Source: Duganella sp. BuS-21 (GTDB lineage: Bacteria; Pseudomonadota; Gammaproteobacteria; Burkholderiales; Burkholderiaceae_D). From it: a DNA stretch of 64,000 bases. The notes below the pieces were generated by a model, which did no database searches, had not been told where the DNA came from, and saw only the letters and a program-made list of their open reading frames with translations. Positions 21,094 to 55,985 of the stretch are shown here, piece by piece. Numbering within the stretch: position 1 is the first letter of the stretch; every line of letters begins with the position of its first letter. The DNA is taken from the NCBI GenBank assembly GCA_041874725.1, contig CP097466.1, forward strand, positions 4,526,001-4,590,000, given 5' to 3'. The position numbers were made by a program, and so were the translations under genes.

Positions 21094-21096
21094 GGT

Positions 21097-22153: not shown

Positions 22154-22249
22154 CGTCAGAGCCAGACTGCCAGCAACATGCCCCTTGACAGGAACTCACC
22201 GGTGACTGCAACAATCCATAGTTAGAAAGAAATTAATAAAACCATTGCG

Positions 22250-22278
22250 ATCTTACACAATGCAATAACCTAGTGCAA
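22250..22278 (-). promoter_or_regulatory. candidate sigma70 promoter of the T2SS-like operon
   Basis: On the minus strand a -35 TTGCAC (22278-22273) and a -10 TAAGAT (22255-22250) are separated by exactly 17 bases. The spacing is ideal and the hexamers match the consensus at four or five positions. The predicted start of transcription, near 22243, would leave a leader of about 90 bases before the first gene. No other strong candidate is seen in this AT-rich stretch. Confidence 0.5.
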
Positions 22279-22497
22279 CTTCATGGCAAATAAAAAACAA
22301 CGGTTTGTTATTCTATAAAAGACTTTCCGAAGTTTAAATTGGCTCCTTAGCCGTTCTGGCCTCCGTTGAATTCATTTGTTGGTCAATAAGCTGATCACGC
22401 TTCATTTGGGTCGCCGTGCGGCGGCCGGATGAGCTCACGTCACATCAGCTTGAAGTTCTAGGTATCGACGCGTATGCGACGCGAGAAGGAGAAAACC

Positions 22498-22641
22498 GTG
22501 GCGTGGCGGAGCGACATTAAGACCCCACCGCCCGAATTGTCTTCAGTCGTTTCAACGCGTATACCGATCTGGAGGCCTCCCCCTGGCCGAGTGCTAACGA
22601 GCAGTGAATTTGTTCAGAAGGACTGTGTTGAATTTACATAA
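22498..22641 (+). CDS. small open frame with strong ribosome-binding site (uncertain)
   Basis: A GTG at 22498 is preceded by AAGGAG (22486-22491) at 6 bases. It opens a frame of 47 residues beginning (M)AWRSDIKTPPPELSSVV and ending KDCVEFT. I do not recognise the product. It might be the remaining start of a host gene cut by insertion of the element, or chance. No membrane segment or known motif is present. Confidence 0.25.
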   Translation: MAWRSDIKTPPPELSSVVSTRIPIWRPPPGRVLTSSEFVQKDCVEFT

Positions 22642-22695
22642 CAGTCACTCACGATAGGTATCGATTTAACAGAGCAATAGCGTTCAGGAAGCGTC

Positions 22696-22750
22696 TGTTT
22701 CGCGATCAAAAGTAAACGGCATCGACACGGTTATGTATTGTCGCGAAACA
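22696..22750. repeat. 10-base inverted repeat near recombinase gene
   Basis: TGTTTCGCGA (22696-22705) and its exact complement TCGCGAAACA (22741-22750) flank 35 bases. A further TTTCGC follows at once. It lies about 150 bases past the end of the serine recombinase gene, where integrase binding or attachment sites are often found, but serine-integrase att sites are seldom simple perfect repeats. Function is a guess. Confidence 0.35.
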
Positions 22751-22898
22751 TTTCGCTACCACAAATGGCACCGTCCATTTTTCTACGGCTTACTTCCCCG
22801 TTACAGCCGCACTATCTCCGCGAACCAGCCGATTGCGCTAAGAATTCGTGTAGTAACTCAGTTCTCCGAACTTTGATTGGAACGCAAAAGCCTCGCGG

Positions 22899-25800
22899 CT
22901 AGCTCTGCTCCAATCCAAACAAAGCATGAAGTTCGTCAGCTTCCAAAACATCTACCTGTGATCGGTAATCATTGGTGACCCACAATTCCTGCTGGTCGAA
23001 GTGCTGCGGTTGAATTAGCAAATACCTGCTAGACAAGGTAGTATCGTGCACCGCCAATTCGGCCAAAAGAAAATCAGCGTTCGCCTTCGCCGCCGGCACC
23101 CGCCATCCGATGCTGCGCTTCTTTCTGCAAGGATGAAGCAGCGACAATTGCAATATCACCTTGTCGTCGATGCGCAGCAGGCCGTTTGAATTGACAGTTT
23201 CTACCGTATGCCCCGCCATGACAATATAGCGCCGTACTCGCGAGGAAAGCTCATCCCTCAAGCTCCATGTAAAAACATTCGGATTTAGCGCGCGACCAGA
23301 TTGCGTCAATCCAGGTACCGCCAGAGTGTAAGCATGGTGCAGGCTCCCAAATGTTTTCTTGATCAGTGCCGCATGCGGCAAGTCCGGCTCGGCCTCGATC
23401 AGACGGTAGCTCAAGCGCCCGTGACGTGCATGCAACTCCCGCAGCTTAACGAGCACTGCGTCGGGGGCCTGCCCTCGCTTGACGCGGCCTAGCTGCTGAG
23501 CACGCGCAAAATCCTCGGCGCTGACCAGGGCCTCGTGCGCACCTAGCGCTCTTAGCCATTGGTCTGTACCATTGACCATTCTCTCGTTGCCTAGCTGTTT
23601 GCTGGTGCGGTTGTATATCAGGTTGCCACAATATTTTTCGTTGGTGAGAATTGCGCGCACACGAACATCGCTCCAGAGACCGCCTGCGGTGAACGCCACC
23701 CCGTCATCGTTCAAACGGCGGGCGAGCGCGCTGAAGCTTAGCGCTTGCTCCAAATACAGTGCGAAGATGCGCCGTACCGTTGCCACCTCGTCCGGCGGCC
23801 CCGGCACTAGCACGACATGGTCGTCGGGAGCACTCTTGCGTTCACCGTTTTCCAGGATGCGTCGCAGCGTCCCGTCGCTGCGCACACCGGCGCGCCGCAA
23901 ACCAAACCCGGCGGCGCCGCCTGCCTTGTATCCGCTCGCCAGCATATAGGCGTGCGATGCAATGACCTTCTCCGAAAGCTGCCGGCTGTACTCGGCGGCC
24001 ATCAGGCGTTTCACATCTTTCATCACGTGAGTCAGCGGCGCTTCCTCTGCGGCAAAAGGCTCCGCACAATACACCACCCGCACGCCGGCGCGCCGGCACA
24101 CCACTTCGTAATACGCACTCTCGTCTACATCCTGAAATCGTCCCAGGCGGCTCACGTCGTAGACCAGCAGCACCGTGAACCCGGCCGCCCCGCTGGCGAT
24201 ATCAAGCAGCAATTGCTGCATGCCATCTCGGCGGCGCGCTGTAAGCCCGCTCTTGCCTTCATCCTTATAGATTCGCCCGAGTGCGAATCCAGCCGACGCG
24301 GCGTAACGTGAAAGATAGTCGATCTGCTGGCCGATCGACTGATCCTGCCGGTCCGTCGACATCCGCACGTACGCGGCGGCGCAGACCTGCGGCGGCCCTG
24401 CTGGATCCTTGTCAAAACTAGCAGCGTTGCAGACGCCTGCCGCCAGACCGAACACCGCCTCCAAGCTTGGATACATCAATTGTCCTACTTTGCCGGAGCG
24501 TCCGCTTTTGATATAGATGATTTCCCGGCCCTCGGCGGCATTGCTGACCAAAGCATAACGGGCAATACGCTGGTTATCCACATCAAGCAGTCCTGCCAGC
24601 ACGAAGTCACAAGCGACAGCGGACCGCACCCGCAAGCGCCAGACCTGCCGGCTATCGGCCCCGCAACACAGCAACACCACCCGCACGCGAATGGTGCCAT
24701 TGATCAGCAGCCGGTTGCCCCGCTTGTTCAGCGGTTCGGCCTCTCCGCCCGCCAGCCGCGCGGCCAGCGCGACCTGCTCGCTCAGCGCGGCGAGCCGTGC
24801 GGCTTGATCGCCGGCTTGCAAACGACGCGCGTGCGGAAAAGCCTGCACGATGCCGGCCTCCCGGCAAGCACCCGCAACCGATCCGAACATGTGCCGCAAC
24901 CTGCGAGCGCCCGGCATTCCAGGAAGGCTAGCCAGCAACGCCATGGTGATTTGCCCATGCTCGGCGTACAGGCGCCGCAGCAGGTCCAGAACGCCTGCTC
25001 GGTCCTGTCCGTTGCGCATGGCCCGTATTTGCAAGGCCGCCGCGCCTTCTGCAGGCGTGACGATAGACTTCAGCGCCTGCGAGCTGCATATCCACTGTTC
25101 TGGAGGGTTGGTCGTGATTGGACTACGCAGCCGCTGGGTGACCCGATTGTAGCTTTGCACGCCCCAGTACTGGGATCGACTAAGCACAGACGAAACCAGA
25201 TATGCACTCCACTGCCTCGCGCCGCACGGAACGCGCTCGAAATTGAGCTGCCGCGCGATCGCACTGACGCTTTGCCACTCCTGAATGTAGAGACGGAAGA
25301 TACGGCGTACGACTTCGACCTCGGCATCATCGCCCGGTGTAAGGCGCACCCGGTCCGTCGCATGCGGCTTGCGCTCGCCATCGGCCAATACCCGGACCAT
25401 TTGACCTTGGGCCGTGACAGCCACCCTGCGCATGCCATAGGTCGCCGCCCCGCCCTGTTTGAACCCCAGCAGCGCCAGGCGCCGCTGGCCGGCAAACACC
25501 TTGGCCGACAACTCTCTGCTGTATTCCGCCGCCATGCTGCGCTTGATGCTTTTCGTCAGCTGGGAAATGGGCGCACCATCATTGATGAACGGTTCTGCGC
25601 AATACAGGACGCTGATGCCGGCGCGCCGACATTGGAATTCGTAGAAGCCGGCATCATCGACGTTCTGAAAGCGTCCCCACCGGCTGACGTCATACACCAG
25701 AAGAACCGTGAACGCAGCTTCGCCGCTGATGACATCCGCCATCAACCGCCGAAATCCCGAACGTTTGTCCCCCAGCAGTCCGCTGCACGCTTCGTCGATA

Positions 25801-25916
25801 TATGTTTGATCGATCCGCATGCCGTGCGCATCCGCATAGCACTGCAATAATTCGATCTGTGCTTGCGGTGACTGCGACTGGGCAGCGGTCGAGGCTCGTG
25901 CATAAGCCGCTGCCAT
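22899..25916 (-). CDS. tandem-fused double serine recombinase
   Basis: I start at the ATG at 25916 (MAAAYARAST, 1005 residues), behind a GGGG-type ribosome-binding site; an upstream extension to 26033 lacks family features. Two complete large-serine-recombinase modules lie in one chain. Module A has catalytic Ser9 in YARAST, DVSRWGRFQ, and MAAEYSREL; module B has catalytic Ser520 in YVRMST, DVSRLGRFQ and MAAEYSRQL. Each resolvase domain is followed by a 'recombinase' domain (VRRIFRLYIQEWQSVSAIARQLN / VRRIFALYLEQALSFSALARRLN) and a matching C-terminal domain ending in a similar LFGL-type motif. Both active sites look intact. It sits at the end of the conjugative element, next to the relaxase genes, and is the likely integrase. 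The family normally has 450-600 residues per polypeptide. Confidence 0.9.
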   Translation of the reverse strand: MAAAYARASTAAQSQSPQAQIELLQCYADAHGMRIDQTYIDEACSGLLGDKRSGFRRLMADVISGEAAFTVLLVYDVSRWGRFQNVDDAGFYEFQCRRAGISVLYCAEPFINDGAPISQLTKSIKRSMAAEYSRELSAKVFAGQRRLALLGFKQGGAATYGMRRVAVTAQGQMVRVLADGERKPHATDRVRLTPGDDAEVEVVRRIFRLYIQEWQSVSAIARQLNFERVPCGARQWSAYLVSSVLSRSQYWGVQSYNRVTQRLRSPITTNPPEQWICSSQALKSIVTPAEGAAALQIRAMRNGQDRAGVLDLLRRLYAEHGQITMALLASLPGMPGARRLRHMFGSVAGACREAGIVQAFPHARRLQAGDQAARLAALSEQVALAARLAGGEAEPLNKRGNRLLINGTIRVRVVLLCCGADSRQVWRLRVRSAVACDFVLAGLLDVDNQRIARYALVSNAAEGREIIYIKSGRSGKVGQLMYPSLEAVFGLAAGVCNAASFDKDPAGPPQVCAAAYVRMSTDRQDQSIGQQIDYLSRYAASAGFALGRIYKDEGKSGLTARRRDGMQQLLLDIASGAAGFTVLLVYDVSRLGRFQDVDESAYYEVVCRRAGVRVVYCAEPFAAEEAPLTHVMKDVKRLMAAEYSRQLSEKVIASHAYMLASGYKAGGAAGFGLRRAGVRSDGTLRRILENGERKSAPDDHVVLVPGPPDEVATVRRIFALYLEQALSFSALARRLNDDGVAFTAGGLWSDVRVRAILTNEKYCGNLIYNRTSKQLGNERMVNGTDQWLRALGAHEALVSAEDFARAQQLGRVKRGQAPDAVLVKLRELHARHGRLSYRLIEAEPDLPHAALIKKTFGSLHHAYTLAVPGLTQSGRALNPNVFTWSLRDELSSRVRRYIVMAGHTVETVNSNGLLRIDDKVILQLSLLHPCRKKRSIGWRVPAAKANADFLLAELAVHDTTLSSRYLLIQPQHFDQQELWVTNDYRSQVDVLEADELHALFGLEQS

Positions 25917-26387: not shown

Positions 26388-27347
26388 CTAACGTTCGGGC
26401 GCGCGTACAACATCCCTGTCACGCCATCGTTCGGCGAGGCCGGCGATGCCCACCGCCAGCGAACGGTCGCTTGGTTCATCCGATAAGGCGAGCACCTCGG
26501 CCACTTTGCCGTAGCGCAGCAACATTTCCTGCTCGCGCCGCTGCGCGCGTTCACGCCGCTGCTGACGCTCACCTTGATCGACCACTTGGCGCAATGCAGC
26601 GCCCCGCTCCAGCATGTGGCGCACGCTTTGCTTCCGGCCCCGTCGGGGCTGGAACCGTTCCAGCCGGCTCGTGGCCGCAGCGTCGATGCCATGCTCCCGC
26701 AGGCGCTCGGCGAAGCGTTCGCGCCAGCGGCGAAAATCCTGCTTGCGCGGGTTGAGCCGTCTCCCATCCGCGCCGGCCATCTTGACGCACAAGTGCACAT
26801 GCGGATGCGGCGACGGATCCTTGCCCGGATCTGAGTCGTAGCTGTGCAAGGCCATCGCATATTGGTGCCCGCTGAATTCGTCTTGGGCAAAGGCGCGCAC
26901 TGCACGGCGCAATGACTGCGAGTCGGTTCCTGCCGGCATCGAGAGCACGATATTCAAGGCCTCGCGCCGCCAAGAGTCTTCGGCGATCGGCATGCCGCCG
27001 CACTGCCACGCGTAGCCCAGCCATGCCAGGTCCTCCTTGCCGTGGTAGCGTTCTCCGTCCTGATCCTCGATCTCCAACCGGCCATGCCGGGATATATAGG
27101 CCAGATGGGCGCGGATACGCCCCATGCCACGGCCGCCGCCCGAAATACGCACCATTGCCTGGGGACTGCGCCGTACAATGCCCTGCAGGCGGCTGCGGAC
27201 CGCGTCGGCGCTGCGCGGCCGCGCGTACAGCTTGAGCGCGCCGGTGGACTTGCCGTAGACGCGTCGGATCTGCCTCTGGTTGAAACCGTCGGCATCCCAT
27301 TGCTTCAGATAGGCGTCGACTTGGCTCGGCTTCACGATCGGCTCCAC
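26388..27347 (-). CDS. VirD2-type (MOBP-like) conjugative relaxase
   Basis: This 319-residue protein nicks one strand at oriT and stays bound to its 5' end. It has a conserved tyrosine region (GRIRAHLAYISRHG, about 75-90) and the metal-binding HxHxH motif III in PHPHVHLCVKM (about 182-190). A basic C-terminus follows (RRGRKQSVRHML, ERQQRRERAQRREQE). This resembles the VirD2 branch, where RVHLRYVxRDG precedes the HxH motif. The gene overlaps the MobC-like gene by 16 bases, the usual mobC-relaxase order. It is shorter than TraI-type relaxases and has no helicase or primase domain. Confidence 0.85.
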   Translation of the reverse strand: MEPIVKPSQVDAYLKQWDADGFNQRQIRRVYGKSTGALKLYARPRSADAVRSRLQGIVRRSPQAMVRISGGGRGMGRIRAHLAYISRHGRLEIEDQDGERYHGKEDLAWLGYAWQCGGMPIAEDSWRREALNIVLSMPAGTDSQSLRRAVRAFAQDEFSGHQYAMALHSYDSDPGKDPSPHPHVHLCVKMAGADGRRLNPRKQDFRRWRERFAERLREHGIDAAATSRLERFQPRRGRKQSVRHMLERGAALRQVVDQGERQQRRERAQRREQEMLLRYGKVAEVLALSDEPSDRSLAVGIAGLAERWRDRDVVRAPER

Positions 27348-37611: not shown

Positions 37612-37614
37612 GGC

Positions 37615-41383: not shown

Positions 41384-42406
41384 TCAGCGCCGACGCAGCT
41401 CGGTGAGCTGAAGATCGGCCAAAGGAATCTGGCGCCGCGCGCCGTCGTCCTGATAACGCACCCAAGCCGCACCGTGCGCTTCGCAGTGCGACAGCAACAG
41501 CTCCACGGCCCGACCAGAATGCAATCCCAGCAGGCACCACTCCTCGGCTTGGCCGACGCCTACCGCGGCTGTCTGCCGTCGCGGCGACTGGGCCTTGAGC
41601 GCCGCGCGGACGCTTGGGCCGGCAGCGCCGCCGGCCAATGTGGCAGGAACTGTGACAGGAACCGGGCCAGGTAGCAGTGCAAGAGAAGGGCCGGCAATCG
41701 CGCCTGCATCCACCACCGCGTCAGGCGCGCAGGCAGCGCCCTCACCCACGCGCACCGACGTCAGCCGCGCCGTCAGCTCTCCGATCAGCGCCAGGTCAAC
41801 CACTGCCGCCTCGGCCACGATCTGCTCAACCAAAGCAGCATTCCTGCGTATCAGCTTGCGCAACAGGTAGAGCGTGTACGGCGCGCGGCAGCGATGTCCG
41901 TGATAAAGCTCCAGCAGCAGCGGCGGCGGTTCGTGCGCCAAGGCCAGCAAATGCGTGACGGCGCTCGGATCGATATGCAGCTTGGCCGCCACCGCGCGCC
42001 GGGTCTCGCCCGCAGCAAGCTTGCGCAGCACGAAACGCCCTAGCTCCAGCGGCTGCAACCGCAGGTGGTACTGGTTCTCCGCAACCTGCGAATAGTCGTC
42101 GAGCTGGCGCTCGTCTTCCGTTTCGACATACGGCAGCGTCTCCAGGCCGGCGCGCAAGGCCGCACGATATCGGCGCGCGCCAAAGCGTATCCGCAACCGG
42201 CCGTCTTCCTGACGACGCACCACGATGGGCTGCAGCACGCCGCGCGCCGCGATATCGGCCGCGAACGCCGCGAACTGAGCATCGTCGGCAAACTCAATGC
42301 GCGGCTGCGCCGGATCCTCCTCGAACATGGTGATGCGCGCCATCGGCGGTACCGCGAGCGAGACCGCCGGCAGACAGGCATCGAGCCGCGACAGGTCCAG
42401 CACCAT
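41384..42406 (-). CDS. parB: ParB partition protein
   Basis: This 340-residue protein has a ParB N domain (MFEEDPAQPRIEFAD, GVLQPIVVRRQEDGRLRIRFGARRYRAAL, VAENQYHLRLQPLELGRFV) with the GxRR-type box and a helix-turn-helix (GETRRAVAAKLHIDPSAVTHLLALA). The C-terminal 150 residues form an Ala/Pro-rich linker and a small domain. It follows parA by one base. It should bind parS sites and couple the element to ParA for segregation or stable maintenance of an excised form. Confidence 0.88.
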   Translation of the reverse strand: MVLDLSRLDACLPAVSLAVPPMARITMFEEDPAQPRIEFADDAQFAAFAADIAARGVLQPIVVRRQEDGRLRIRFGARRYRAALRAGLETLPYVETEDERQLDDYSQVAENQYHLRLQPLELGRFVLRKLAAGETRRAVAAKLHIDPSAVTHLLALAHEPPPLLLELYHGHRCRAPYTLYLLRKLIRRNAALVEQIVAEAAVVDLALIGELTARLTSVRVGEGAACAPDAVVDAGAIAGPSLALLPGPVPVTVPATLAGGAAGPSVRAALKAQSPRRQTAAVGVGQAEEWCLLGLHSGRAVELLLSHCEAHGAAWVRYQDDGARRQIPLADLQLTELRRR

Positions 42407-42407
42407 C

Positions 42408-43301
42408 TCACACCTCCCTCAGCAGCCGCGCCGTGATGGCGTCGAACGATGGCCGGATCTCGCGCCACGCATCGCGCGCCGCGCTGCGCAGCGGCATGGC
42501 CGACCTGCCCTGCAAAACCTTGCCCTCCACACCGTCGCATGGACTCGCCTCGGCCGGCGAGGTCTGACGTAGCTCCCACAAGGGGACGCCGGCTGCTTGT
42601 GCTTCGGCGATAGCGGTGCGCGTCGGCACATAGGCATAGCCGGCGGCTTGACCGCGCACGACCGGGATCAGCAGGCCAGGATGGCGCAGCACCAGCTGCT
42701 GCAGGTTGGCGCGCTGGAACGGTGTCGCCTCGACCAGGTTGGGCAGAATGCCGATCAGTTCGAGCTTGGGGTTCAACAACTCGCGCATGCGAAAGAATCC
42801 GTAGCGCTTATGCAGCATCAGGCTCTCGATACCGTCGATCGCCTCCTGGTTCAGCTGAACCGGCGCGAGCAAAAAGTCGGCGGTGGCCAGCGCCGCTGCA
42901 TAACGCACATCGGGGCTGGGATTGGTGTCCATCACGCACACGGCAAAGTCCTTGCCGACAGCGGCCAGGAAGCGCTGCAAGGCATTGACGAAATCATTGT
43001 GGCGCGCCGGCTGACGCTCCAAGGCGCCCAGACCACCGTGGCCCGGCACCAGCACCAGATCGCCCTCGGGCAGCACGCCCTCACGGCCTTCCAACACGTC
43101 CAGCATCGTGAATCCCGCCACTGCGACCCGCCCGCCACGTATCAGGCTGCGCGAAGCATTCATCTGCTGGTCCAGCTCCAGCAACAAGGTCCGTGCACCG
43201 GCCCGCGCAGTGTAGAACGACAGCTGGCAGGCCACGAAGGTCTTGCCGACGCCTCCTTTCTGGTTCGCTACCGCCACGACCGCCGCCATCGCCATCTCCA
43301 C
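42408..43301 (-). CDS. parA: ParA-family partition ATPase
   Basis: This 297-residue protein has the deviant Walker A of ParA (NQKGGVGKTFVACQLSFYTA, about 13-32), TLLLELDQQMNASRSL (usually DxDPQ; here LELDQQMN) and DFAVCVMDTNPSPDVRYAAAL as Walker B/A'. It forms an operon with parB and is divergent from the type IV secretion operon. Start could also be the next ATG (MAMAAVV or MAAVVAV). Expected to be DNA-bound in the ATP state. Confidence 0.88.
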   Translation of the reverse strand: MEMAMAAVVAVANQKGGVGKTFVACQLSFYTARAGARTLLLELDQQMNASRSLIRGGRVAVAGFTMLDVLEGREGVLPEGDLVLVPGHGGLGALERQPARHNDFVNALQRFLAAVGKDFAVCVMDTNPSPDVRYAAALATADFLLAPVQLNQEAIDGIESLMLHKRYGFFRMRELLNPKLELIGILPNLVEATPFQRANLQQLVLRHPGLLIPVVRGQAAGYAYVPTRTAIAEAQAAGVPLWELRQTSPAEASPCDGVEGKVLQGRSAMPLRSAARDAWREIRPSFDAITARLLREV

Positions 43302-44357: not shown

Positions 44358-46826
44358 ATGCGCCCTCTGTTTGCACGCCCACCATTCGTCAACCACGAGC
44401 CGCCGATCGCCGAGCATGTTCCGCTGGGCGGATGGATCACACCCGACGTGGTTCGTCTCCGGCACAACGGCGATCTGCTGGCAACCTGGCGCGTAGCAGG
44501 CATCTCGTTCGAGACCGCAGACATCCAATACATCGGCGACCGCAAACGCACGTTGCACAATCTGTGGAACGCCATGGGCGGCGGGCGCTGCGCGATCTGG
44601 GCGCACAAGGTGCGCCGCGCAGTCCGCGTCGTACCAGGAGGAAAACCGGACAATGCGTTCGCCCGCGCATTTACCGAACGCTACAACGCCAGCCTGGCCG
44701 GCGCCCCCGACATACCCGGCCATCGGCAAATGGTGACGGAGCTTTACCTGTCATTGATTTACCGCGCACCCGGAAACAAACGCAGCCTGCGGCAAAAGCT
44801 GGGCGGCTCTTCGACCGCGCAGCTGTACGACACCCAGCAAAGCAATCTCGACGCACTGGAAGAGCTGGCGGCCAGGCTCGAACACAGCTTGCAGCCATAT
44901 GGTCCCGAGCGCCTCAGCCTGTTCCAGCGCGGCGCAGCGACCTATTCCGAACAAGCGGCCTTCTATGGCTTCCTGATCAACGGGGTATGGGAGGATGTTC
45001 CATACCGTGATGTCCGTCTGGCCGAGCACCTGCCGGTGTCCCGCCTGCACTTCGGCGACAGCAACGGCATGGTGGAGATCTGGCATCCGCAAGCGCGACG
45101 CTTTGCCGGTCTGCTGGATTTCCGGGATTATCCGGCGCAGTCGGAGCCGGGCATGAACAATGCCATCCTGTACAGCGACTACGAATACATCGAAACCCAG
45201 AGCTTTTCCATGCTCGGCAAGCACGATGCCCTCGCAGCGCTCAGGCGCCAGGCCGGTCACCTCTACGCGGCCGAAGATCCATCAACCAGCGAGATCGAAC
45301 AGATGGATCAGGCCATGGCCGACGTCAACAGCGGCGACATCCAGATGGGGGAATACCACTATTCGCTGGCCGTGTTCGGCGACTCGCCCAAAGAGGTCGC
45401 GCGCCACATGGCCGCCGCCCGCGCGGCCCTGATGGACGGCCCCGGATTCAAAATGACGGTGGTTGATGCCATCCCGGAATGCGCGTGGTTCGCCCAGATA
45501 CCGGGGAACTGGAAGATGCGCCCGCGCCAGGCATCCATCAGCAGCAAAAACTTTACCAGCCTGGCGCCGCTGCATAATTTCGCGCAGGGCAAACGTCACG
45601 GCAACCCGTGGGGCGAAGCGCTGGCCTTGATGAACACACCTAGCGGCCAGCCCTACTTCTTCAACTTCCATGCATCGCCCGCCGATGACGACTCGACGGA
45701 TGTCAAGCGTCCGGGCAACACCATCATCATCGGCCAGACCGGCGTCGGCAAGACCGCGCTGGTCAGCGGCTTGATCGCACTGGCGCAGAAATATGTGGGT
45801 CTGCGCTGTATGGTCTTCGACAATAAGCGTGGTACCGAAATTTTCATACGCCGCATGGGTGGCCATTACACCTCTTTCAAACGCGGTGAGCCGACCGGGC
45901 TCAATCCTTACCAGCTGCCGCCGACCGAAACAAATATAGCCTTCTGCGAGCGTTGGCTGCAGCTGCTGGCTGGCCCGCCACAGGCAGGTCTCGCCACCCA
46001 AGAGGAACAGGAAGTCAGCCATGCCGTGCGCACCGTCATGAGCGATGCGATTCCCTTCGCATTGCGGCGACTGTCGACAGTCTGGCAAAACCTGAAAGTG
46101 CACCAAGGTGGCAACAGCCTGCGCGACCGCCTGTATAAATGGACGGCGCAAGGCCAACTTGGATGGGCGTTCGACAACCCTCTTCATACCCACGACCTGA
46201 ACCTGAACGGGGTGACGATCTACGGCTACGACTGCACCGACATCCTGGACGATCCGGAACTGTGCGCGCCGGTGGTGGACCTGCTGCTGCATATCAGCAC
46301 CGAACTAATTAACGGCAATCCCTTCATCTATTACATGGAGGAATTCTGGAAGTATTTGAAGAACCAGCACTTCGCCAGCGCGGTCGAGGACAAGCAGAAC
46401 ACCATCCGCAAGCTGTTCGGGATCGGCCTATATGTCACGCCATCTGCGAACGACGCCCTGCAGCACAAGATCAGCAGAACCATCGTTGAACAATGCGCGA
46501 CCAAAATTTTCCTGCCCAACCCGGCGGCCGACCATGACGACTACGTTAACGGCTTCAAGCTGAGCGAACAGGAGTTCACTCTGATCCGCAACATGAACGA
46601 AAACAGCCGTCTGATGCTGGTCAAGCAGGGACATCAGTCCGCCATCCTGAAGTACGACTTGGGCGGCATGCCGGACATGCTGAACATTCTCTCCGGTTCG
46701 CTTGACAACGTCATGCTGCTGGACGACATCCGCGAACAGTTCGGTGACGATCCGGAGATTTGGGAACCGATACTGCAGGAACGGATAACGCTACGTCGAT
46801 CAATCAGCAAGGAAAGGAAAAACTGA
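44358..46826 (+). CDS. virB4: VirB4 ATPase
   Basis: This 822-residue T4SS ATPase has a CagE/TrbE/VirB N-terminal domain (about 60-400), Walker A IIIGQTGVGKTALVSG at about 455-470, Walker B-like PFIYYMEEFWKYL at about 655, and the C-terminal Gln/Arg motifs around ATKIFLPNPAADHDDY. It powers pilus assembly and substrate translocation from the inner membrane. AAGGAG precedes its ATG. Length is normal. Confidence 0.95.
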   Translation: MRPLFARPPFVNHEPPIAEHVPLGGWITPDVVRLRHNGDLLATWRVAGISFETADIQYIGDRKRTLHNLWNAMGGGRCAIWAHKVRRAVRVVPGGKPDNAFARAFTERYNASLAGAPDIPGHRQMVTELYLSLIYRAPGNKRSLRQKLGGSSTAQLYDTQQSNLDALEELAARLEHSLQPYGPERLSLFQRGAATYSEQAAFYGFLINGVWEDVPYRDVRLAEHLPVSRLHFGDSNGMVEIWHPQARRFAGLLDFRDYPAQSEPGMNNAILYSDYEYIETQSFSMLGKHDALAALRRQAGHLYAAEDPSTSEIEQMDQAMADVNSGDIQMGEYHYSLAVFGDSPKEVARHMAAARAALMDGPGFKMTVVDAIPECAWFAQIPGNWKMRPRQASISSKNFTSLAPLHNFAQGKRHGNPWGEALALMNTPSGQPYFFNFHASPADDDSTDVKRPGNTIIIGQTGVGKTALVSGLIALAQKYVGLRCMVFDNKRGTEIFIRRMGGHYTSFKRGEPTGLNPYQLPPTETNIAFCERWLQLLAGPPQAGLATQEEQEVSHAVRTVMSDAIPFALRRLSTVWQNLKVHQGGNSLRDRLYKWTAQGQLGWAFDNPLHTHDLNLNGVTIYGYDCTDILDDPELCAPVVDLLLHISTELINGNPFIYYMEEFWKYLKNQHFASAVEDKQNTIRKLFGIGLYVTPSANDALQHKISRTIVEQCATKIFLPNPAADHDDYVNGFKLSEQEFTLIRNMNENSRLMLVKQGHQSAILKYDLGGMPDMLNILSGSLDNVMLLDDIREQFGDDPEIWEPILQERITLRRSISKERKN

Positions 46827-46828
46827 TC

Positions 46829-47032
46829 ATGAAAACCAAGCTTATTCCTGTCTTCATTGTCGCCGCCGCCCTTGCGATGACGGCATGCAACAACGATAAA
46901 AAGATGAACCTCGAGTCCCAGAAGGACGGGACGGAAAACTTTAAGTACGACCCAAATCACCCGAAGTATCCAGCCTTCCCAGGAAAGAATACAACACCGC
47001 CTAAGCAAGCAGATCGGCGTTCGCAGAAGTAA
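46829..47032 (+). CDS. small lipoprotein, VirB7-like position
   Basis: This 67-residue protein begins at the ATG at 46829, two bases after virB4 and behind GGAAAGGAAA. It has a signal peptide with lipobox (VAAALAMTAC, Cys at about 20), and a hydrophilic tail rich in Lys, Asn and Pro. It could be the outer-membrane-complex lipoprotein VirB7 or an exclusion-type lipoprotein. Sequence conservation in such proteins is too low to decide. Confidence 0.7.
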   Translation: MKTKLIPVFIVAAALAMTACNNDKKMNLESQKDGTENFKYDPNHPKYPAFPGKNTTPPKQADRRSQK

Positions 47033-47059
47033 TCACCAAAGTGTCACTTGGGAGGCGTC

Positions 47060-48082
47060 ATGGGAATCGCGCAAGAGCTTGATGCAGCTGCCGATCTGCT
47101 GCTGAACAATTATATCGTGGACAAGAGTACTGCAGTCTGCAGCATCCTTACGCCGATCGCACTCTGCGCGCTAACCATCCACTTCATTCAGGTTGGACTT
47201 TCGATCGCGCGCGGCCAAAGTCATGAACCAGTCAAGGACGAGCTGTTCCGGCTGCAGCGTACCAGCTTTATTCTCATGATGGCCCTGAGCGCGGGTATCT
47301 ATCAAATGTATATTGTCGCCAGCTTCGAAGGCATCGGGGTTGCGTTTATCTTTGCAGTCTCAGGTAAGACAGGCTTCGCGGCGCAATTAGATAATTTGGC
47401 AGAGCCTTTTGCGGCCCTTGGCGACAGCTTGTGGAGCCAGGCAACCACGGGCGTCTTCCCGCATGTAGGACTACTTTTCGCCGCAGCGATTGTCGCCCTG
47501 ACCCAAATCTTTTTGTTCTCTATCGGGATAGGCTTTTATTTGCTGGCAAAGATATCCGTTACGCTGACCATGGCGGTAGGACCGGCGTTCATCCTGTGCG
47601 CGATCTGGCCTTCAACGCAGAAGTATGCGGAAAACTGGGTGGGACAAACGTTAAACTTCGTCTTCCTCAAGGTACTGGTCACCTGCGCGATTGTCATGCT
47701 GACTTCATTCGCTAGTCAGTTTGCGGAAAGCATGCCAAAAACAGTTGATGCGATTAACGTCGCCCGCAGCTCGTGCGCGCTCCTGATAGCCTGCATCGCG
47801 CTGGCTATCGTCATGCTCAGTCTGCCACGACTGTCCAGCGCCTTGTTCGGCGGTGCATCAGTGGCTGGCATAGGCCGAACCTTGACGCAACAAGCGCTGC
47901 ACAACCTGCAACCTGGTCGCTCCCGTCACTCGGGCGGTCGCCAGCCACGTTCCAACAACTCGACCCGACCGGGACCGGGGCTGGCCAGTCGGCACGACAA
48001 CACCATCAGCAATCGCAACCCGATGTATCAGCGCCATGCGTTGAGCAACCTCCAGCGGCATCAATCAAGGAGAACGGCATGA
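47060..48082 (+). CDS. virB6: VirB6/TrbL-like polytopic membrane protein
   Basis: Start is the ATG at 47060, behind GGGAGG at 4 bases; a TTG at 47048 in the same frame is unlikely. The 340-residue protein has about six membrane helices (25-45, 75-95, 130-160, 165-195, 205-230, 240-260) and a hydrophilic Arg/Asn/Ser-rich tail. This is VirB6 topology, forming part of the DNA path through the inner membrane. Its stop overlaps the next start in an ATGA. Confidence 0.88.
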   Translation: MGIAQELDAAADLLLNNYIVDKSTAVCSILTPIALCALTIHFIQVGLSIARGQSHEPVKDELFRLQRTSFILMMALSAGIYQMYIVASFEGIGVAFIFAVSGKTGFAAQLDNLAEPFAALGDSLWSQATTGVFPHVGLLFAAAIVALTQIFLFSIGIGFYLLAKISVTLTMAVGPAFILCAIWPSTQKYAENWVGQTLNFVFLKVLVTCAIVMLTSFASQFAESMPKTVDAINVARSSCALLIACIALAIVMLSLPRLSSALFGGASVAGIGRTLTQQALHNLQPGRSRHSGGRQPRSNNSTRPGPGLASRHDNTISNRNPMYQRHALSNLQRHQSRRTA

Positions 48083-48786
48083 GAGTCAAGTTCATCAAAT
48101 TAGTCGCCGTCGCGGCACTCTGCGCAAGCTTCGAGGCACACGCCCAGTTCGCGGTCATCGACGTCGCCAATCTGACCCAAGCCATCAAGGAAGTGGAAGC
48201 TTGGGCCAAGCAGTACAAGCAAATGAGCGACCAGCACAAGCAGCTGCAGCAGGAATACGCCTCGATCACCGGCTCGCGCGGGCTGGGCAATTTTTCCAAC
48301 AACCCCTTGCTGCAAGGGACCGTGCCGCCTGAACTGCTACAGATCTACGGCGCGATGCAAAATCAGGGCGCGCAAGGCCTGACCGGAGCCGCCAAGGCCA
48401 TTCGCGAAAAACTCAAAATCTACAATTGTGAAGACCGTAAAGGCACCGACCGCATTACCTGCGAGCAGCTGTTGAACAACCTCTCGCAGCAGCAGGCGCT
48501 GCTGCAGCAGGCCCTGACACTGACCGGCATCCGCACGACGCAAATACAGGCATTGCAGGACAAGATCAATGCCACCAGTGATCCCAAGTCCATCGCCGAA
48601 CTGCAAGCGCGGCTTCAAGCCGAGACCACCCAGGTCGCGAACGACGCCAACCGGCTACTCCTGATGCGCAGCCTGTCCGATGCCGCCGACCGGGCGGCGG
48701 AACAGTCGGTGCGCGAAAAATACCTGCACAGCCTGTCGCTGCATACGGACGGTACCGAATCGTTCAAATTCGTTCCGATGAAGTAG
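48079..48786 (+). CDS. virB5: VirB5-like minor pilus component
   Basis: This 235-residue protein begins MRVKFIKLVAVAALCASFEAHAQ, a clear signal peptide, then FAVIDVANLTQAIKEVEAWAKQYKQM and long glutamine-rich helices, as VirB5/TrbJ. It overlaps virB6 in an ATGA. VirB5 sits at the pilus tip and aids recipient contact. Order B6 then B5 differs from Agrobacterium but is common in other T4SS. Confidence 0.88.
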   Translation: MRVKFIKLVAVAALCASFEAHAQFAVIDVANLTQAIKEVEAWAKQYKQMSDQHKQLQQEYASITGSRGLGNFSNNPLLQGTVPPELLQIYGAMQNQGAQGLTGAAKAIREKLKIYNCEDRKGTDRITCEQLLNNLSQQQALLQQALTLTGIRTTQIQALQDKINATSDPKSIAELQARLQAETTQVANDANRLLLMRSLSDAADRAAEQSVREKYLHSLSLHTDGTESFKFVPMK

Positions 48787-48813
48787 GGCCCTAAAGCGAA
48801 ACCGGAGCACACC

Positions 48814-49560
48814 ATGTCTAACCTGCCACCGCAAGTTCCAGCTGCGCGAATCAAGGCGGACGAAAATTTTCCGCCTTGGGAAGTCAAGATTGATGAACTT
48901 CTACTGCGGTCTGAGCGCCGCGCCTGGTGGGTAGCGGGAGTGGCCAGCATCATCGCACTGACGGCCATCGTCGCGCTGGCCATGCTGGCGCCTTACCGCC
49001 GCTATATTCCCTTCCTGCTGGGAATGGACCGGGTGAACGGCAACGTCGAGGTGATCGGCGCGATAGACGACCGCACCGTCAAAGGCTATCAGGAGCTGGT
49101 CGACAAGTACTGGGTGCAGCGCTACGTCTCCTCCCGCACATCCTACTTTTACAGGCTGCTGCAGGAAGACTACGACACCACGCTGGAACTCAGCGAGGGC
49201 CAGGCCAGAACGGACTACATGCGTGAATACGAGGGGACCGACGCACGCGACAAGCGCTACGGCGCCAATGTGGAGGTCCAGGTCAAGATCGTCAGCATCC
49301 AGCTCTTTTCCAACGGGGTCGGCCAGCAGGCCTCCGTACGCTTCAGCAAAACCACGCGCCACCTCGACAGCAACACAACGGAACCCGTGCAATTCGCCAT
49401 TGCCACCATCGGCTACCGCTACCAGCCAAGTATGTTTGCCAAGGAAATCGCACTGATCCGCAACCCTCTTGGTTTCAAAGTATCGGTCTATCGCGTGGCC
49501 AACGAGCTGGCGCCGACTGTGAGCAAGCCGGAAAAAGCTGCGGGCGACACAGGAGAATGA
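48814..49560 (+). CDS. virB8: VirB8 assembly factor
   Basis: This 248-residue bitopic protein has a cytoplasmic N-terminus (about 1-40, WEVKIDELLLRSERRAWW), one helix (about 42-62) and the periplasmic VirB8 fold with YWVQRYVSSRTSYFYRLLQEDYDTTLELS and RNPLGFKVSVYRVANEL. VirB8 is a scaffold of the inner-membrane complex. It is followed one base later by virB9. Confidence 0.93.
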   Translation: MSNLPPQVPAARIKADENFPPWEVKIDELLLRSERRAWWVAGVASIIALTAIVALAMLAPYRRYIPFLLGMDRVNGNVEVIGAIDDRTVKGYQELVDKYWVQRYVSSRTSYFYRLLQEDYDTTLELSEGQARTDYMREYEGTDARDKRYGANVEVQVKIVSIQLFSNGVGQQASVRFSKTTRHLDSNTTEPVQFAIATIGYRYQPSMFAKEIALIRNPLGFKVSVYRVANELAPTVSKPEKAAGDTGE

Positions 49561-49561
49561 T

Positions 49562-50434
49562 ATGAAAACGCTTTATCTTATTTTCCTCCTGTTCTACTCG
49601 GTCGGCTGCGCATCGGCCGATCTGCCGTTTTCCACAGGAACAGAGCCTCGGGTGCGCTACGTCGACTACCACGCTGACGCCGTAACATCGGTCCGCGTGC
49701 AGCGCGGCACGGCCACCCGCATCGTCCTGGCGGAAGACGAACGAATCTCGCGCGACGGCGCAGCGACCGGATTTTCAGCAGACTGCCGCAAGGCGGACGA
49801 TGAGTGGTGCATGCGGGCCGACGCCGGGATGAATTACATGCTGGTGCGCCCCAAATCCGGTGCACGATTCAATAACCTCGAATTGCGTACTGACAAACGC
49901 GACTACAGTTTCCGCTTCGATGTGATCGACGACAGCGCGCAGCGCAAGCAGCAAAACAAGGTCATGCCGGCTAACGACCAAGCTACGTACCGCGTGGTTT
50001 TTCGCTACGCTGCCGTACCAAAAGCGGTACCGGCGTCCCAAGGCGCGCCTTCGGTCCGCACCGTTGCCGAAGTGGTCAACGCGGCACGCCCCCACCCACG
50101 TAACTGGCGCTACTCCATGCAGCCGCTGCCTGGCTCGGACGACATCGTACCGTCCCTGGTGTTCGATGACGGCCGCTTTACCTACTTCCGCTTCCCCGCC
50201 AATCGCGAGGTGCCGACGATTTATTTCGTTTCCCCCGCCGGCGAAGAGGGCCGTGTCAACTTCCACGTCGATCAGCACGACTCAGGCCTGATCGTGGTCG
50301 AGCGCATGGGGCTCCAGTTCATCTTGCGGCTTGGCGGCGCCGTCATCGGCATCTGGAACGATGCCTTCGATCCCGACGCCGAGGGGCCGGTCGACGGCAC
50401 CACGATCGACGGCTTGAAACGTGTAATGCGTTAA
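49562..50434 (+). CDS. virB9: VirB9 outer-membrane complex protein
   Basis: This 290-residue protein has a signal peptide (YLIFLLFYSVGCASA) and the VirB9 N-terminal beta domain (TGTEPRVRYVDYHADAVTSV, WCMRADAGMNYMLVRPK). The C-terminal domain that binds VirB7/VirB10 carries FDDGRFTYFRFPANREVPTIYFV. It forms the periplasmic and outer-membrane ring with VirB10. It is 11 bases ahead of virB10. Confidence 0.93.
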   Translation: MKTLYLIFLLFYSVGCASADLPFSTGTEPRVRYVDYHADAVTSVRVQRGTATRIVLAEDERISRDGAATGFSADCRKADDEWCMRADAGMNYMLVRPKSGARFNNLELRTDKRDYSFRFDVIDDSAQRKQQNKVMPANDQATYRVVFRYAAVPKAVPASQGAPSVRTVAEVVNAARPHPRNWRYSMQPLPGSDDIVPSLVFDDGRFTYFRFPANREVPTIYFVSPAGEEGRVNFHVDQHDSGLIVVERMGLQFILRLGGAVIGIWNDAFDPDAEGPVDGTTIDGLKRVMR

Positions 50435-50445
50435 GGACCAACATC

Positions 50446-51822
50446 ATGACGACCAGTGAAGCGAACGACTTCGGGAATGCCCAGGAACGCATCGTCTCGG
50501 TAAACGACTACGGCGGCGCCAAGCAGCCTTTGTGGCGGAGGGCACTGTGGGCCACCATCATCGCGGCATTGCTGGCAGTCTCAGTGATGGCCAGCATTAA
50601 CAACTGGCGCGCGCGGGCTAGTGCAGCCGAGAGCGATCAGACGAAAGCGAAAAGGCAGGCAGCAAGATCGGACAACGATCCATCCCGCCGCACCTTCCCA
50701 CTCGCCGCTTCGCCTCCCGCCACTGTCCCGCGCGCACAACCGGGTGCCGAGGTGGGCCTGCCGTTGCCGGCGCCCAGCGAGCGCCGTTGCGACGATGGTA
50801 TGCCGGGCGAACCGATGACTGGATTGGATGGAAAAGTGATGCTGGCCCCGGCAGGCCAGCCCATACGGATTTGCCGTAACGGGCAGATGCTGATTCCACC
50901 ATGGCCCGAGCCGGCTGTTGCCGGAAACCGCCAAGCGCAGGCCGCGGCAGCTACTGGTGTTCCCGCCTCGGCAGGCGCCACGAAAACGCCCCATGCACGC
51001 GCCGACCGCTACGGCGGCGACATAGTGCTGCCATCGGCTTCCGGCGAACTTGCCGCAGGCAGTACACCAGCGGTAGTTGCAACATCGGCGCCAGCCATTG
51101 GAAGCAAACATGACGAAACATTACCTGCTCTCGGCAAGGATCAGGACGCAGGCCCAGGCCAGGCTGCGGCAGGCAGCTTGCACGCGCTACTGCGTCCGGC
51201 GCGCATCAGCGCTGTACGCGCGCAACTACTTGAAAACCGCGACATGCTGCTGCCGCAAAGCCGCACCATCGATTGCAACCTCTCGCTGCGTGTAGTGAGC
51301 GAAGTCGCCGGCATGGCGGTTTGCGTGTTGTCGTCCTACGTGTATGGAGACACCGGCGTCGCGGTGCTGGCGGAACCGGGATCCGTCGCCACCGGCGACT
51401 ATCTCGCCCTCGCCGCACAAGGCCAACGCCGACTGTTCATCATCTGGAACCGCTTGAAAACCCCGAGTGGCGTGGTCATCGAACTTGCCTCACCCGCGTC
51501 CGATGCGTTGGGCACCTCTGGAGTGGAAGGCTACGTCGACAACCGCTGGGCCGAGCGCATCGGCGCCGCCGCCCTGCTCTCCACAGTGCAGGACACCATC
51601 GCTTATCAGACGGCACGCGCCAGCGCGGGCGATGGCAACGGCAATGGCGGCATCGCCGTCTTCCCCAACACCAGCCAGGCCGGCAGCCGGTTGGCGGAGC
51701 AAATCCTCGCCAGCACCATCAACATCAACCCCACCATTTTCAAGCAACAGGGCGACCGCGCATCCATCACCGTCGCCCGTGACCTTGACTTCGGGAGTGT
51801 CTATGCCCTGCGCACCAAATAA
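50446..51822 (+). CDS. virB10: VirB10/TrbI channel protein
   Basis: This 458-residue protein has a cytoplasmic N-terminus, one membrane helix (about 34-54), a long proline/alanine-rich periplasmic linker with Cys residues (RRCDDG, IRICRNG), and the TrbI C-terminal domain (LENRDMLLPQSRTIDCNLSLRVVSEVAGM, YVDNRWAERIGAAALLS, INPTIFKQQGDRASITVARDLDFGSVY). It spans both membranes and senses energy from the ATPases. The linker is longer than in the shortest homologues. Confidence 0.93.
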   Translation: MTTSEANDFGNAQERIVSVNDYGGAKQPLWRRALWATIIAALLAVSVMASINNWRARASAAESDQTKAKRQAARSDNDPSRRTFPLAASPPATVPRAQPGAEVGLPLPAPSERRCDDGMPGEPMTGLDGKVMLAPAGQPIRICRNGQMLIPPWPEPAVAGNRQAQAAAATGVPASAGATKTPHARADRYGGDIVLPSASGELAAGSTPAVVATSAPAIGSKHDETLPALGKDQDAGPGQAAAGSLHALLRPARISAVRAQLLENRDMLLPQSRTIDCNLSLRVVSEVAGMAVCVLSSYVYGDTGVAVLAEPGSVATGDYLALAAQGQRRLFIIWNRLKTPSGVVIELASPASDALGTSGVEGYVDNRWAERIGAAALLSTVQDTIAYQTARASAGDGNGNGGIAVFPNTSQAGSRLAEQILASTININPTIFKQQGDRASITVARDLDFGSVYALRTK

Positions 51823-52924
51823 ACCGCTGCCCCTGGATACCTCGGTACGCGAGCTATTCCGGCCGCTCGCACCCTACCTGGACATCCCCGGCGTCACCGA
51901 GATCGCGGTCAACCGTCCAGGCGAAGTCTTCGTCGAAGCGGGCCCGCACTGGACCCGCTTCGAAGCGCCGGAGCTGACGCTGGAGCGCTGCTGGAGCATG
52001 GCGACTGCCATCGCCTCCTACGCCAACCAGCGCGTCGACAGCATGGCGCCGCTGCTCGGTGCGCAGTTGCCGGGCCTGCAGCGGATCCAGATCGCCGTGC
52101 CCCCTGCTGTCGAGGAGCACACGGTGGCCATGACCATTCGCATCCCCGACGCCCAGGTCCGCAGTTTCGACGAGTACGAGGCGCAGGGCTTCTTCAGCCG
52201 CTTCATGTGGCCGCAGCCGTCCAAACTCGGCAATCGAAGCCAGGACCTCGATCAGGTACAACTGAGGTTGATAAATTGCCTCCAGGCCGGCGCTTTGGCC
52301 GACTTCCTGCGGATCGCCGTACGCCACAAGCTCAACATCGCTTTCGTCGGCGATACCGGCTCCGGCAAGACCTCGTTGATGAAGGCCGCCTGCCAGTACA
52401 TTCCCGCCGAAGAACGCCTGATCACCATCGAGGACGTGCGTGAGCTGTTCCTGCCCAAACACGCCAACCGGGTGCACATGCTGTACAGCCGCCCCACGCA
52501 AGGCATGGCATCGGTGTCACCGGCCGACCTGATCGCCACCAATATGCGCATGAAACCCGACCGTGTGCTACTGGCGGAACTGCGCGGCGGTGAGGCGTTC
52601 GACTTCCTCAAGCTGCTGACCACGGGCCACAGCGGCTCGCTCACCAGCTTTCACGCAGAGTCCTGCGCACTGGCCGTCGAGCGCTACATCCTGATGTGCA
52701 AGGAGCACAGCCAGGCCGCCATCTACGACGCCGAAGCCTTGCGCCGCTTGGTGGGCTTGACCATCGACGTCATCGTGCATATCAAGGTCGATCTTCAATA
52801 TGCCGAGGATGGCCAACCCTTGCGCAAGGAACGCTATGTGGCAGAGGTCAGCTACGATCCGGTCGCCAAACTCAACCACCGCTTTGGTGCCGCCAGCCTC
52901 TTACACACAAGAGGCTTGCCATGA
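51803..52924 (+). CDS. virB11: VirB11 traffic ATPase
   Basis: Start is the ATG at 51803, 20 bases inside virB10; the frame is open further upstream but only as virB10 shadow. This 373-residue hexameric ATPase has FVGDTGSGKTSLM (Walker A, about 180-193), ITIEDVRELFLP (Asp box), VLLAELRGGEAFDFL (Walker B) and TGHSGSLTSFHA (His box). It switches the machine between pilus assembly and DNA transfer. It shares an ATGA with the next gene. Confidence 0.95.
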   Translation: MPCAPNKPLPLDTSVRELFRPLAPYLDIPGVTEIAVNRPGEVFVEAGPHWTRFEAPELTLERCWSMATAIASYANQRVDSMAPLLGAQLPGLQRIQIAVPPAVEEHTVAMTIRIPDAQVRSFDEYEAQGFFSRFMWPQPSKLGNRSQDLDQVQLRLINCLQAGALADFLRIAVRHKLNIAFVGDTGSGKTSLMKAACQYIPAEERLITIEDVRELFLPKHANRVHMLYSRPTQGMASVSPADLIATNMRMKPDRVLLAELRGGEAFDFLKLLTTGHSGSLTSFHAESCALAVERYILMCKEHSQAAIYDAEALRRLVGLTIDVIVHIKVDLQYAEDGQPLRKERYVAEVSYDPVAKLNHRFGAASLLHTRGLP

Positions 52925-53247
52925 CCGCGCGTAAGATCGTGCTGATGCTAGTGGTTTGCGCCTTGGCCACCGGCGTGCTTGCGTGCTGCCTGTACGCGGC
53001 CGGCTACGTGTACTTCCTGCTCAATAAGGCGACTCCCTCCCATATCGAACTCGGTACCTGGTGGATGTACTGGAAAGCGTACGGCGACCATCCGCAGCAG
53101 CGCATCCGGTTGCTGGTATCCGTGGCGATACCGCTGATCGCGGTCATTGCGGCTGTACTGTTAGCACTCCGGCCGACCCCGCGTTCGCTGCACGGCGACG
53201 CCCGCTGGGCAACTCGCAGGGATATCGACGACGCGGGGCTGCTATGA
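52921..53247 (+). CDS. virD4: membrane half of a split VirD4/TraG coupling protein
   Basis: This 108-residue protein contains two membrane helices (about 8-35 and 65-84) and ends LHGDARWATRRDIDDAGLL, a segment that in intact VirD4/TraG proteins continues directly into the ATPase domain. Here it stops with a TGA that overlaps the ATG of the next gene (ATGA at 53244-53247). The two chains probably associate to form the coupling protein. A one-base frameshift, real or a sequencing error, is an alternative; the same ATGA coupling elsewhere in this operon favours a natural split. Confidence 0.8.
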   Translation: MTARKIVLMLVVCALATGVLACCLYAAGYVYFLLNKATPSHIELGTWWMYWKAYGDHPQQRIRLLVSVAIPLIAVIAAVLLALRPTPRSLHGDARWATRRDIDDAGLL

Positions 53248-55274: not shown

Positions 55275-55985
55275 ATGTCCCGCACCATATTCACCATCCC
55301 GACACTGCTATTGGCGCTATGTGCCTGCGGCAGTCCGCCGAACGCAAAATCGCCTGATGGGCGAGAGCGTATTCCCGTCAACAGCGCGACCGCGATGGCG
55401 CAATACCAGGCGACAGCGCGCCCATCGAACGTCACCGGCATCGGCTTGCCGTCCGACCGCGTGCCGGCGCTGGAACAGGAAGTCCATGTGCTGCGACAAA
55501 GGGTGACCGAATTGGAAGGCCGGAGCCGCGCACCAGGCAAAAAGATGGCTGACAAGGAACCGCCGCGCGTCCAGCTGGTAGACGGTGCGGAAGTCGAGCA
55601 TCGCCCGGGAGGTCTGATTGTGCGCATGATGCATCCGATCGGCCAGGCGACGTTCCAACCAGGTCCCAGTCTCGAAGCGCTGGTGCTCACCGAAGCGGCT
55701 GCGAGCCGCCGTATTGAAGTTCGCGGCAGGACGGATGCCTGGCAAGCCGACCCGCTTAACGACAAGCTGGCCGCGAGGCGGGCGGCACTCGCGCGCGACT
55801 ACCTCGTCGGCCGGGGCGTGCCGCCTGCCACGATTGAAACCGGACACCTTGCGGCCGGCGATTTCGTCGCCGACAACCGCACCGTCGCCGGACGCGCACG
55901 CAACCGCCGCGTCGAAATCGCATTCATCGCTGCCGTCCCAGCCATATCAGACGAAACCGCAGCCACGCAAAGGAGCAAGCCATGA
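55275..55985 (+). CDS. OmpA-family lipoprotein of the transfer operon
   Basis: This 236-residue protein has a lipoprotein signal (LLLALCACG), a coiled-coil stretch (VPALEQEVHVLRQRVTELEGR) and a C-terminal OmpA-like peptidoglycan-binding domain (IEVRGRTDAWQADPLNDKLAARRAALARDYLVGRGVPPATIETG, described in parts, then NRRVEIAF). It probably links the outer-membrane ring of the T4SS to the cell wall, in place of a dedicated VirB1-type factor, which is not seen here. The next gene begins within its stop (ATGA). Confidence 0.85.
   Translation: MSRTIFTIPTLLLALCACGSPPNAKSPDGRERIPVNSATAMAQYQATARPSNVTGIGLPSDRVPALEQEVHVLRQRVTELEGRSRAPGKKMADKEPPRVQLVDGAEVEHRPGGLIVRMMHPIGQATFQPGPSLEALVLTEAAASRRIEVRGRTDAWQADPLNDKLAARRAALARDYLVGRGVPPATIETGHLAAGDFVADNRTVAGRARNRRVEIAFIAAVPAISDETAATQRSKP

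Follow-up and report, generated by a model that had tools for sequence, protein, structure and literature searches.

It is an open question why certain elements require two or even three distinct large serine recombinases (LSRs), and the 64-kb window (the whole stretch of DNA that was analysed) raises it in a particular form: what is a single polypeptide that appears to carry two such enzymes head to tail, and what would it do? The open reading frame (ORF) at issue lies on the minus strand; its 1005 codons, counted from an ATG, run without a stop and encode 1005 amino acids. The frame stays open on the 5' side to a TTG at 26033, and the conserved fold starts at the ATG. The parts of this protein to which we refer below are the following.

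22899..25916, minus strand: the whole 1005-aa fused protein, a double large serine recombinase in the order module A, linker, module B
24444..25916, minus strand: module A, residues 1-491, with catalytic Ser9 at 25890-25892
24444..24848, minus strand: corresponding C-terminal domain of module A, residues 357-491, placed by alignment (this half is modelled poorly)
24381..24443, minus strand: linker of 21 residues (492-512), without an in-frame start codon inside
22902..24380, minus strand: module B, residues 513-1005, with catalytic Ser520 at 24357-24359
23940..24380, minus strand: Resolvase catalytic domain of module B, residues 513-659 (PF00239)
23493..23795, minus strand: Recombinase domain of module B, residues 708-808 (PF07508)
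23319..23465, minus strand: helical stretch of module B, residues 818-866, from the structure model
22902..23288, minus strand: C-terminal domain of module B, residues 877-1005, with a modelled fold like that of I-Ssp6803I

An earlier note on this DNA had claimed two complete serine recombinases in one chain, and the comparison of the halves bears this out. Residues 1-505 and 506-1005 align over nearly their whole length with 38% identity (E 4e-98), and Pfam places two stretches each of Resolvase (PF00239) and Recombinase (PF07508) in the protein, one per half. The serine motifs YARAST (Ser9) and YVRMST (Ser520) and the two DVSRxGRF motifs are found as that note had located them. Judged from sequence, then, the modules are LSRs, two complete ones, and no new enzyme class. 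The note had also held that LSRs are normally single-module; in agreement, 223 of the 231 proteins listed in our protein searches are 785 aa or shorter.

The catalytic residues are intact in both modules. R7, S9, D41, R52, D76, R79 and R82, together with their module B counterparts, are the same residue in all 65 aligned modules, so that the degenerate active site that the earlier note had considered is not what we find. Serine replaces the usual aspartate of the DRLxR motif (giving DVSR) in 64 of the 65 modules, the canonical motif being taken from alignments of TP901-1 and TnpX; we therefore regard DVSR as a trait of this LSR branch and not as decay. The “matching C-terminal domain” of the note is present in both halves, but it is their least alike part, with 22% identity as against 52% in the catalytic domain. 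Since the C-terminal domains of B modules differ from one another just as much (22-32% identity) as those of A and B modules do (22-28%), this divergence alone is no proof of two specificities.

If the protein is a fusion, its halves might be expected as separate genes elsewhere, and such genes exist. Some relative of the fused protein occurs in 29 of 74 genomes of the genus, its own genome counted. In two of the 73 others, designated G004 and G050, an A-like gene is followed by an adjacent B-like gene in another frame. Identity is 55% (G004) and 50% (G050) for the A-like genes and 50% and 49% for the B-like genes. The overlap between neighbours is 4 bp in G004; in G050, where the stop codon of A lies inside B, it is 20 bp counted from the ATG start of B.

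Locus L014 (G004), 8993-10549: A gene, grouped with module A (support 100/100)
Locus L014 (G004), 10546-12081: B gene, grouped with module B (support 100/99)
Locus L015 (G050), 9226-10824: A gene, grouped with module A (support 100/100)
Locus L015 (G050), 10793-12343: B gene, grouped with module B (support 100/99)

In a tree of 65 modules, an A clade (100/100) and a B clade (100/99) are sisters (99/95); a second tree, of 51 rows, gives corresponding supports of 100/99, 100/100 and 98/90. Because the two halves group apart from each other, each with its matching unfused gene, the order of events was duplication, then a two-gene pair, then fusion. The trees thus place the joining of an A/B pair into one chain in the lineage of this ORF, after the duplication. 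The pseudo-dimer reading of the earlier note gains from this result, for the halves derive from two paralogues whose genes are neighbours in relatives. Elsewhere, the host genome holds a second relative, a single-module protein of 538 aa (G000:C1:3065781-3067100; L059 9439-11055) that belongs to another clade.

End branches are of similar length in the fused halves (0.60 and 0.78) and in the split genes (0.40, 0.77, 0.59 and 0.55), which argues that neither half is decaying. A chance or decaying fusion that has no function and is heading for loss would fit an A-B fusion that occurs once; the long open frame, the retention of all catalytic residues and these branch lengths make it, in our judgement, highly improbable. 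The same data bear on the proposal that only one module catalyses while the other serves as a partner in DNA binding or synapsis. In its favour, partners with unequal roles occur in some two-subunit recombinases, and the halves have diverged most in their C-terminal domains. Nevertheless, catalytic residues intact in both modules across all 65 rows, and end branches of similar length, render one-module catalysis distinctly unlikely.

A more prosaic explanation is that A and B are still separate genes in this bacterium and were joined by a one-base assembly error. The A-B fusion is seen in one genome and one assembly only, and both nearest relatives, G004 and G050, have separate genes in different frames. 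We simulated one-base changes in the 60 bases before the linker and through the linker, and 75 of 246 yielded two overlapping ORFs, in which A ends at residue 476-499 and a start codon for B lies 25-33 codons ahead of the module; a single assembly error could therefore mimic the fusion. Against this, the host genome is one closed contig of 6.49 Mb, the longest homopolymer near the junction is 4 bases, and in most of the 75 cases the overlap amounts to roughly 20 codons at least, as against 4 and 20 bases in G004 and G050. Moreover, double LSRs are certain in other lineages, on several contigs. We thus consider a sequence error unlikely. The earlier note had named separate genes in close relatives, joined here by an assembly error, as the outcome that would count against it: the first part is what same-genus relatives display, and the second is the sequence error that we consider unlikely.

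We found no second A-B fusion in the genus (74 genomes) or in samples of the family (392 genomes) and order (399 genomes). In the family sample 51 of the 392 genomes had a match at E 1e-60, and in the order sample only the host genome itself did at E 1e-100. A phylum sample queried with P0001, a double LSR described below, gave matches in 27 of 398 genomes at E 1e-90, with no frame above 593 aa. In the family, order and phylum samples, most rows scored at most two candidates per genome. Matches on plasmids (165 records) were all under 60% identity, and among the best 40 of these 165 only that of the Massilia litorea plasmid NZ_CP062942 spans two genes. A scan of genome contigs gave one distant locus, and viral contigs searched with P0001 gave 14 loci whose matched stretches of about 1.5 kb or less correspond to single modules.

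Double LSRs do occur beyond the genus. Searches of about 5.8 billion proteins, which scored only the roughly 8000 candidates sharing most words, gave 231 different proteins among the best 120 of 177 and the best 120 of 310 matches. Eight of the 231 (P0001-P0005, P0121, P0122 and P0124) exceed 850 aa and have two LSR modules; they are 973-1089 aa long. All eight have two YxRxS sites and seven have DVSRxGRF twice, the first module of P0124 having DVTRWGRF instead. None of their source names mentions fusion. P0124, of 973 aa, comes from a 135-kb contig and represents a fusion of its own on the tree. P0002 has no firm placement. In the P0001-type set, the N and C modules fall in different single-module clades, so that this chain joins two distinct LSRs. 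The fused label changes five times on the tree when halves are counted apart. By this reconstruction there were at least three fusions: that of the ORF 22899-25916 protein, that of P0124 and that of the P0001-type set. Double LSRs are thus, on present sequences, rare but recurrent.

The P0001-type proteins allow the two modules and their spacer to be compared. Among P0001, P0003, P0004 and P0005 the N modules are 55-87% identical and the C modules 67-79%, and the linker of 46-48 aa has 15-23% identity in five of six pairs. Conserved modules with a variable linker are what is expected of selection on both modules with a free spacer between them. Trees of the N and C modules of the P0001-type set agree in part, with P0122 outermost and P0003 and P0004 together in both, whereas the position of P0001 differs between them and is well supported; the trees thus do not establish that the halves were strictly inherited together. 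A four-protein tree agreed on the congruence of the halves, with weak support.

Adjacent genes for different LSRs are likewise not confined to the A/B type. Neighbouring LSR genes from clades C and D occur in four genomes of the family (G325, G265, G359 and G380), and a pair of yet another kind occurs in G073; two different LSRs side by side thus arose several times on this branch. G325 was at one point a candidate for a fused gene (an open frame of 1042) and was rejected, a TAA standing between two genes. At this locus (L049, 6307-9369) two LSR genes lie in the same frame, 48 bases apart with the TAA, one stop codon away from a double chain.

What might the fused recombinase move? The genes beside it, which also include one for an antirestriction protein, are those of a conjugative element.

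26388..27347, minus strand: relaxase (PF03432)
41384..43301, minus strand: ParB/KorB-like and ParA-like partition genes (PF02195, PF13614)
44358..52924, plus strand: type IV secretion genes VirB4, B6, B8, B9, B10 and B11
53061..55262, plus strand: VirD4-type coupling protein (PF02534)
55982..57397, plus strand: LPD7 protein (PF18821)

Relaxase, coupling protein, type IV secretion ATPase and recombinase stand in one block, and the same set is found in G050. From its gene content (relaxase, ParA/ParB, VirB/VirD4 and LPD7) the 22.9-57.4 kb block is most probably an integrative conjugative element (ICE). Nineteen of 21 queried element ORFs, including VirB10, have matches in G050 at 39-81% identity. 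Because the A/B pair of G050 sits in this orthologous element, the fused protein is probably the recombinase of the element. Among the ORFs scanned between 26.4 and 60.2 kb, a part of those present, there was no other recombinase except an IS21 pair (57923-60240). The A/B pair of G004 has no type IV secretion genes beside it, and LPD7 fragments only.

In G050, recombinase gene B adjoins the LPD7 gene in convergent orientation, and the order relaxase - recombinase - LPD7 on a circle is the same in both elements. If both are integrated, the circle is cut at different points: 3' of the recombinase in the 64-kb window, but 5' of it in G050; the G050 recombinase then lies beyond the presumed att junction, and the element ends do not simply agree. 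When 22150-22960, on the 3' side of the recombinase, was scanned against 57-75 kb for exact att repeats, the 16 matches obtained, of 10-11 bases, equalled the number expected, and a control stretch of equal length gave matches of up to 12 bases. A 10-mer at 22798 and 57469, near both presumed ends, is not significant, and comparison of the flanks with G050 and G004 for att sites gave nothing above chance. A search for an empty site found none: other genomes match the left flank (20000-22899) no further than about 22260, through a secretin-type operon.

Several further features of the region deserve record. The secretin-type operon (20000-22259) occurs twice in the host genome, the other copy (G000:C1:510781-513043) having 78% identity to it over 2260 bases. 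Within the element, ORFs for a DnaE-type polymerase and an ImuB-type (IMS) protein (34441-39444) resemble by their look an inducible-mutagenesis cassette, and the G050 element also has DnaE (81% identity) and ImuB (64%). A perfect 18-base palindrome, AAGGTGGTCGACCACCTT, lies at 57588-57605, just after the LPD7 gene; it has one copy in the window, with 0.01 expected, and its 16-base core is in none of 121 loci compared. It could be an operator or an end signal. Transfer RNA genes surround the region (tRNA-Gly at three places and tRNA-Cys; -5705 to -5512, 74032-74107 and 87014-87487), and an ORF at 85773-86882 resembles a tyrosine integrase by eye; together, these suggest nested islands at a tRNA cluster. 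A single ORF of 3915 aa occupies 916-12663.

DNA recognition would fall to the C-terminal domains, and here the protein departs from familiar LSRs. The full-chain structure prediction that the earlier note had proposed was obtained (mean pLDDT 65), the single-module rows having aligned to module B; as module A was poorly modelled, we used the model for module B only. In it, the C-terminal domain of module B resembles PD-(D/E)XK nucleases such as I-Ssp6803I and not the usual zinc ribbon. Module B has one cysteine from residue 809 on and no coiled coil in the model, and neither C-terminal domain of the fused protein has a Pfam match at E up to 10. The single cysteine and the lack of a Pfam match indicate a branch of LSRs that does not have the canonical C-terminal domain, and the single-module relatives belong to the same branch. 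The homing-endonuclease-associated repeat PF18780 is found in P0001 (862-914) and P0002 (857-908), where module B has its helical stretch; Pfam gave no match to it in the 1005-aa protein. A profile search of the PDB for the nuclease-like fold reached a best E of 1.2, and Pfam searches of 42 C-terminal domains gave stray matches in one or two members each, the best (E 0.0042) to a DUF. The catalytic motif of PD-(D/E)XK enzymes is D...(D/E)xK. By eye, no (D/E)-x-K signature is visible in the alignment in the strand region of 64 rows, and the domain is therefore probably one for binding and not a nuclease.

We propose that A and B are a co-evolved pair of LSR genes that became fused and that the product acts as the integrase/excisionase of the element at 22.9-57.4 kb. 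The stop-start junction of the split genes would have become the 21-residue linker, and as a result A and B would be made 1:1 in cis as a covalent heterodimer. The fusion would fix this ratio, to which coupled translation of the overlapping genes probably comes close in the relatives. A and B may bind different half-sites or different att sites by means of their diverged C-terminal domains. Both serines would act, and two chains would form a four-subunit synapse that always contains two A and two B modules.

The consequences of the tether depend on where the modules sit. Serine recombinases, as outlined in PMC11607074, act on two sites as a tetramer, one half of which rotates after cleavage. 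Because strand exchange rotates the halves of the tetramer against each other, a short tether across the interface could limit rotation. If A and B occupy the two halves of one site, the tether would span this interface and may limit rotation to one turn; if it joins subunits on the same side, rotation would be free.

A different arrangement would be two enzymes on one string, with A-A acting on one site or in one direction and B-B on the other; the fusion would then only fix their ratio, and internal starts may add free B. The LSR arrays of Streptococcus ICEs, with their position-specific clades as sketched in PMC4701971, offer a precedent. Free B could arise from the in-frame ATG of residue 481, the Shine-Dalgarno sequence of which is weak (-4.7, rank 25 of the 84 in-frame start-like codons), although it is not outstanding by rank; the ATG of the ORF itself has -6.7 and ranks 7 of 84. 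The first in-frame start-like codons 3' of the linker, GTG517 and ATG519, both fall within the first strand of module B. Yet a linker of 21 residues is short and would favour A and B lying close together, and we regard this arrangement as improbable.

Our preferred reading thus remains a fused pair acting in concert. That the fusion is real, that it is the recombinase of this element and that both modules act together is one joint claim, towards which we lean with modest confidence on the strength of the sequence comparisons. Most likely, the protein would be a covalent A-B heterodimer, like CcrA/CcrB but tethered. We offer only tentatively, and as doubtful in its entirety, the fuller picture of a single-chain heterodimer that reads two half-sites, has a tether that limits rotation to one turn, is of a kind with at least three independent origins and carries a disarmed, homing-endonuclease-like tail.

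The covalent A-B chain and its split relatives allow a direct test of why an element would need more than one LSR. Binding of each module to half-sites, cutting by both serines and the effect of the tether on subunit rotation are all testable on this chain. If the proposal is true, directional DNA integration could profit from single-chain heterodimers that act on asymmetric sites. Further, recurrent fusion and the modelled nuclease-like tail would make LSR architecture wider than that of the solved zinc-ribbon integrases. We know of no publication on a natural double LSR, on the recurrence of such proteins or on their nuclease-like tail, and the titles and abstract starts among the openly licensed papers listed mention neither such a double LSR nor an LSR tail of this type.

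The protein can be set against several known systems. LSRs and serine integrases such as TP901-1, LI/A118, Bxb1, phiC31 and the SPbeta type have one module per chain, whereas the fused protein has two. These integrases also differ in the C-terminal region: the fused protein is without a zinc ribbon and, in the model, without a coiled coil, and has a predicted homing-endonuclease-like domain in their place. LI integrase, for example, has a zinc-ribbon DNA-binding domain with four cysteines and a coiled coil (PMC3783163). The modelled resemblance to the homing endonuclease I-Ssp6803I and the restriction enzyme NhoI, both of the PD-(D/E)XK fold, does not extend to a sequence-level match.

The best-known LSR pair is CcrA/CcrB, the mechanism of which is reportedly the subject of Misiura 2013. 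There, too, two different LSR genes are adjacent, on the same strand and in a mobile element, as in G004 and G050 and, fused, in ORF 22899-25916. The ccrAB genes of Enterococcus are described as sharing a single bicistronic mRNA, and it is this pair that moves the element (PMC6222049, PMC7581432). The likeness is one of arrangement: CcrA and CcrB are separate proteins with SCC targets at rlmH, whereas the fused protein is a single polypeptide, and its conjugative element belongs to a Gram-negative genus. The Streptococcus ICEs carry serine integrase triplets in tandem that, according to the outline in PMC4701971, arose by successive duplications and cluster by position; these are three separate genes, and the A-B recombinase is fused. 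Like it in architecture are the metagenomic double LSRs P0001-P0005, P0121, P0122 and P0124, with two full LSR modules and two sets of catalytic motifs. Where listed, they are 30-37% identical to the fused protein and represent separate fusion events, and the linkers of P0001, P0003, P0004 and P0005 (46-48 aa) are longer than the 21 residues that join A to B.
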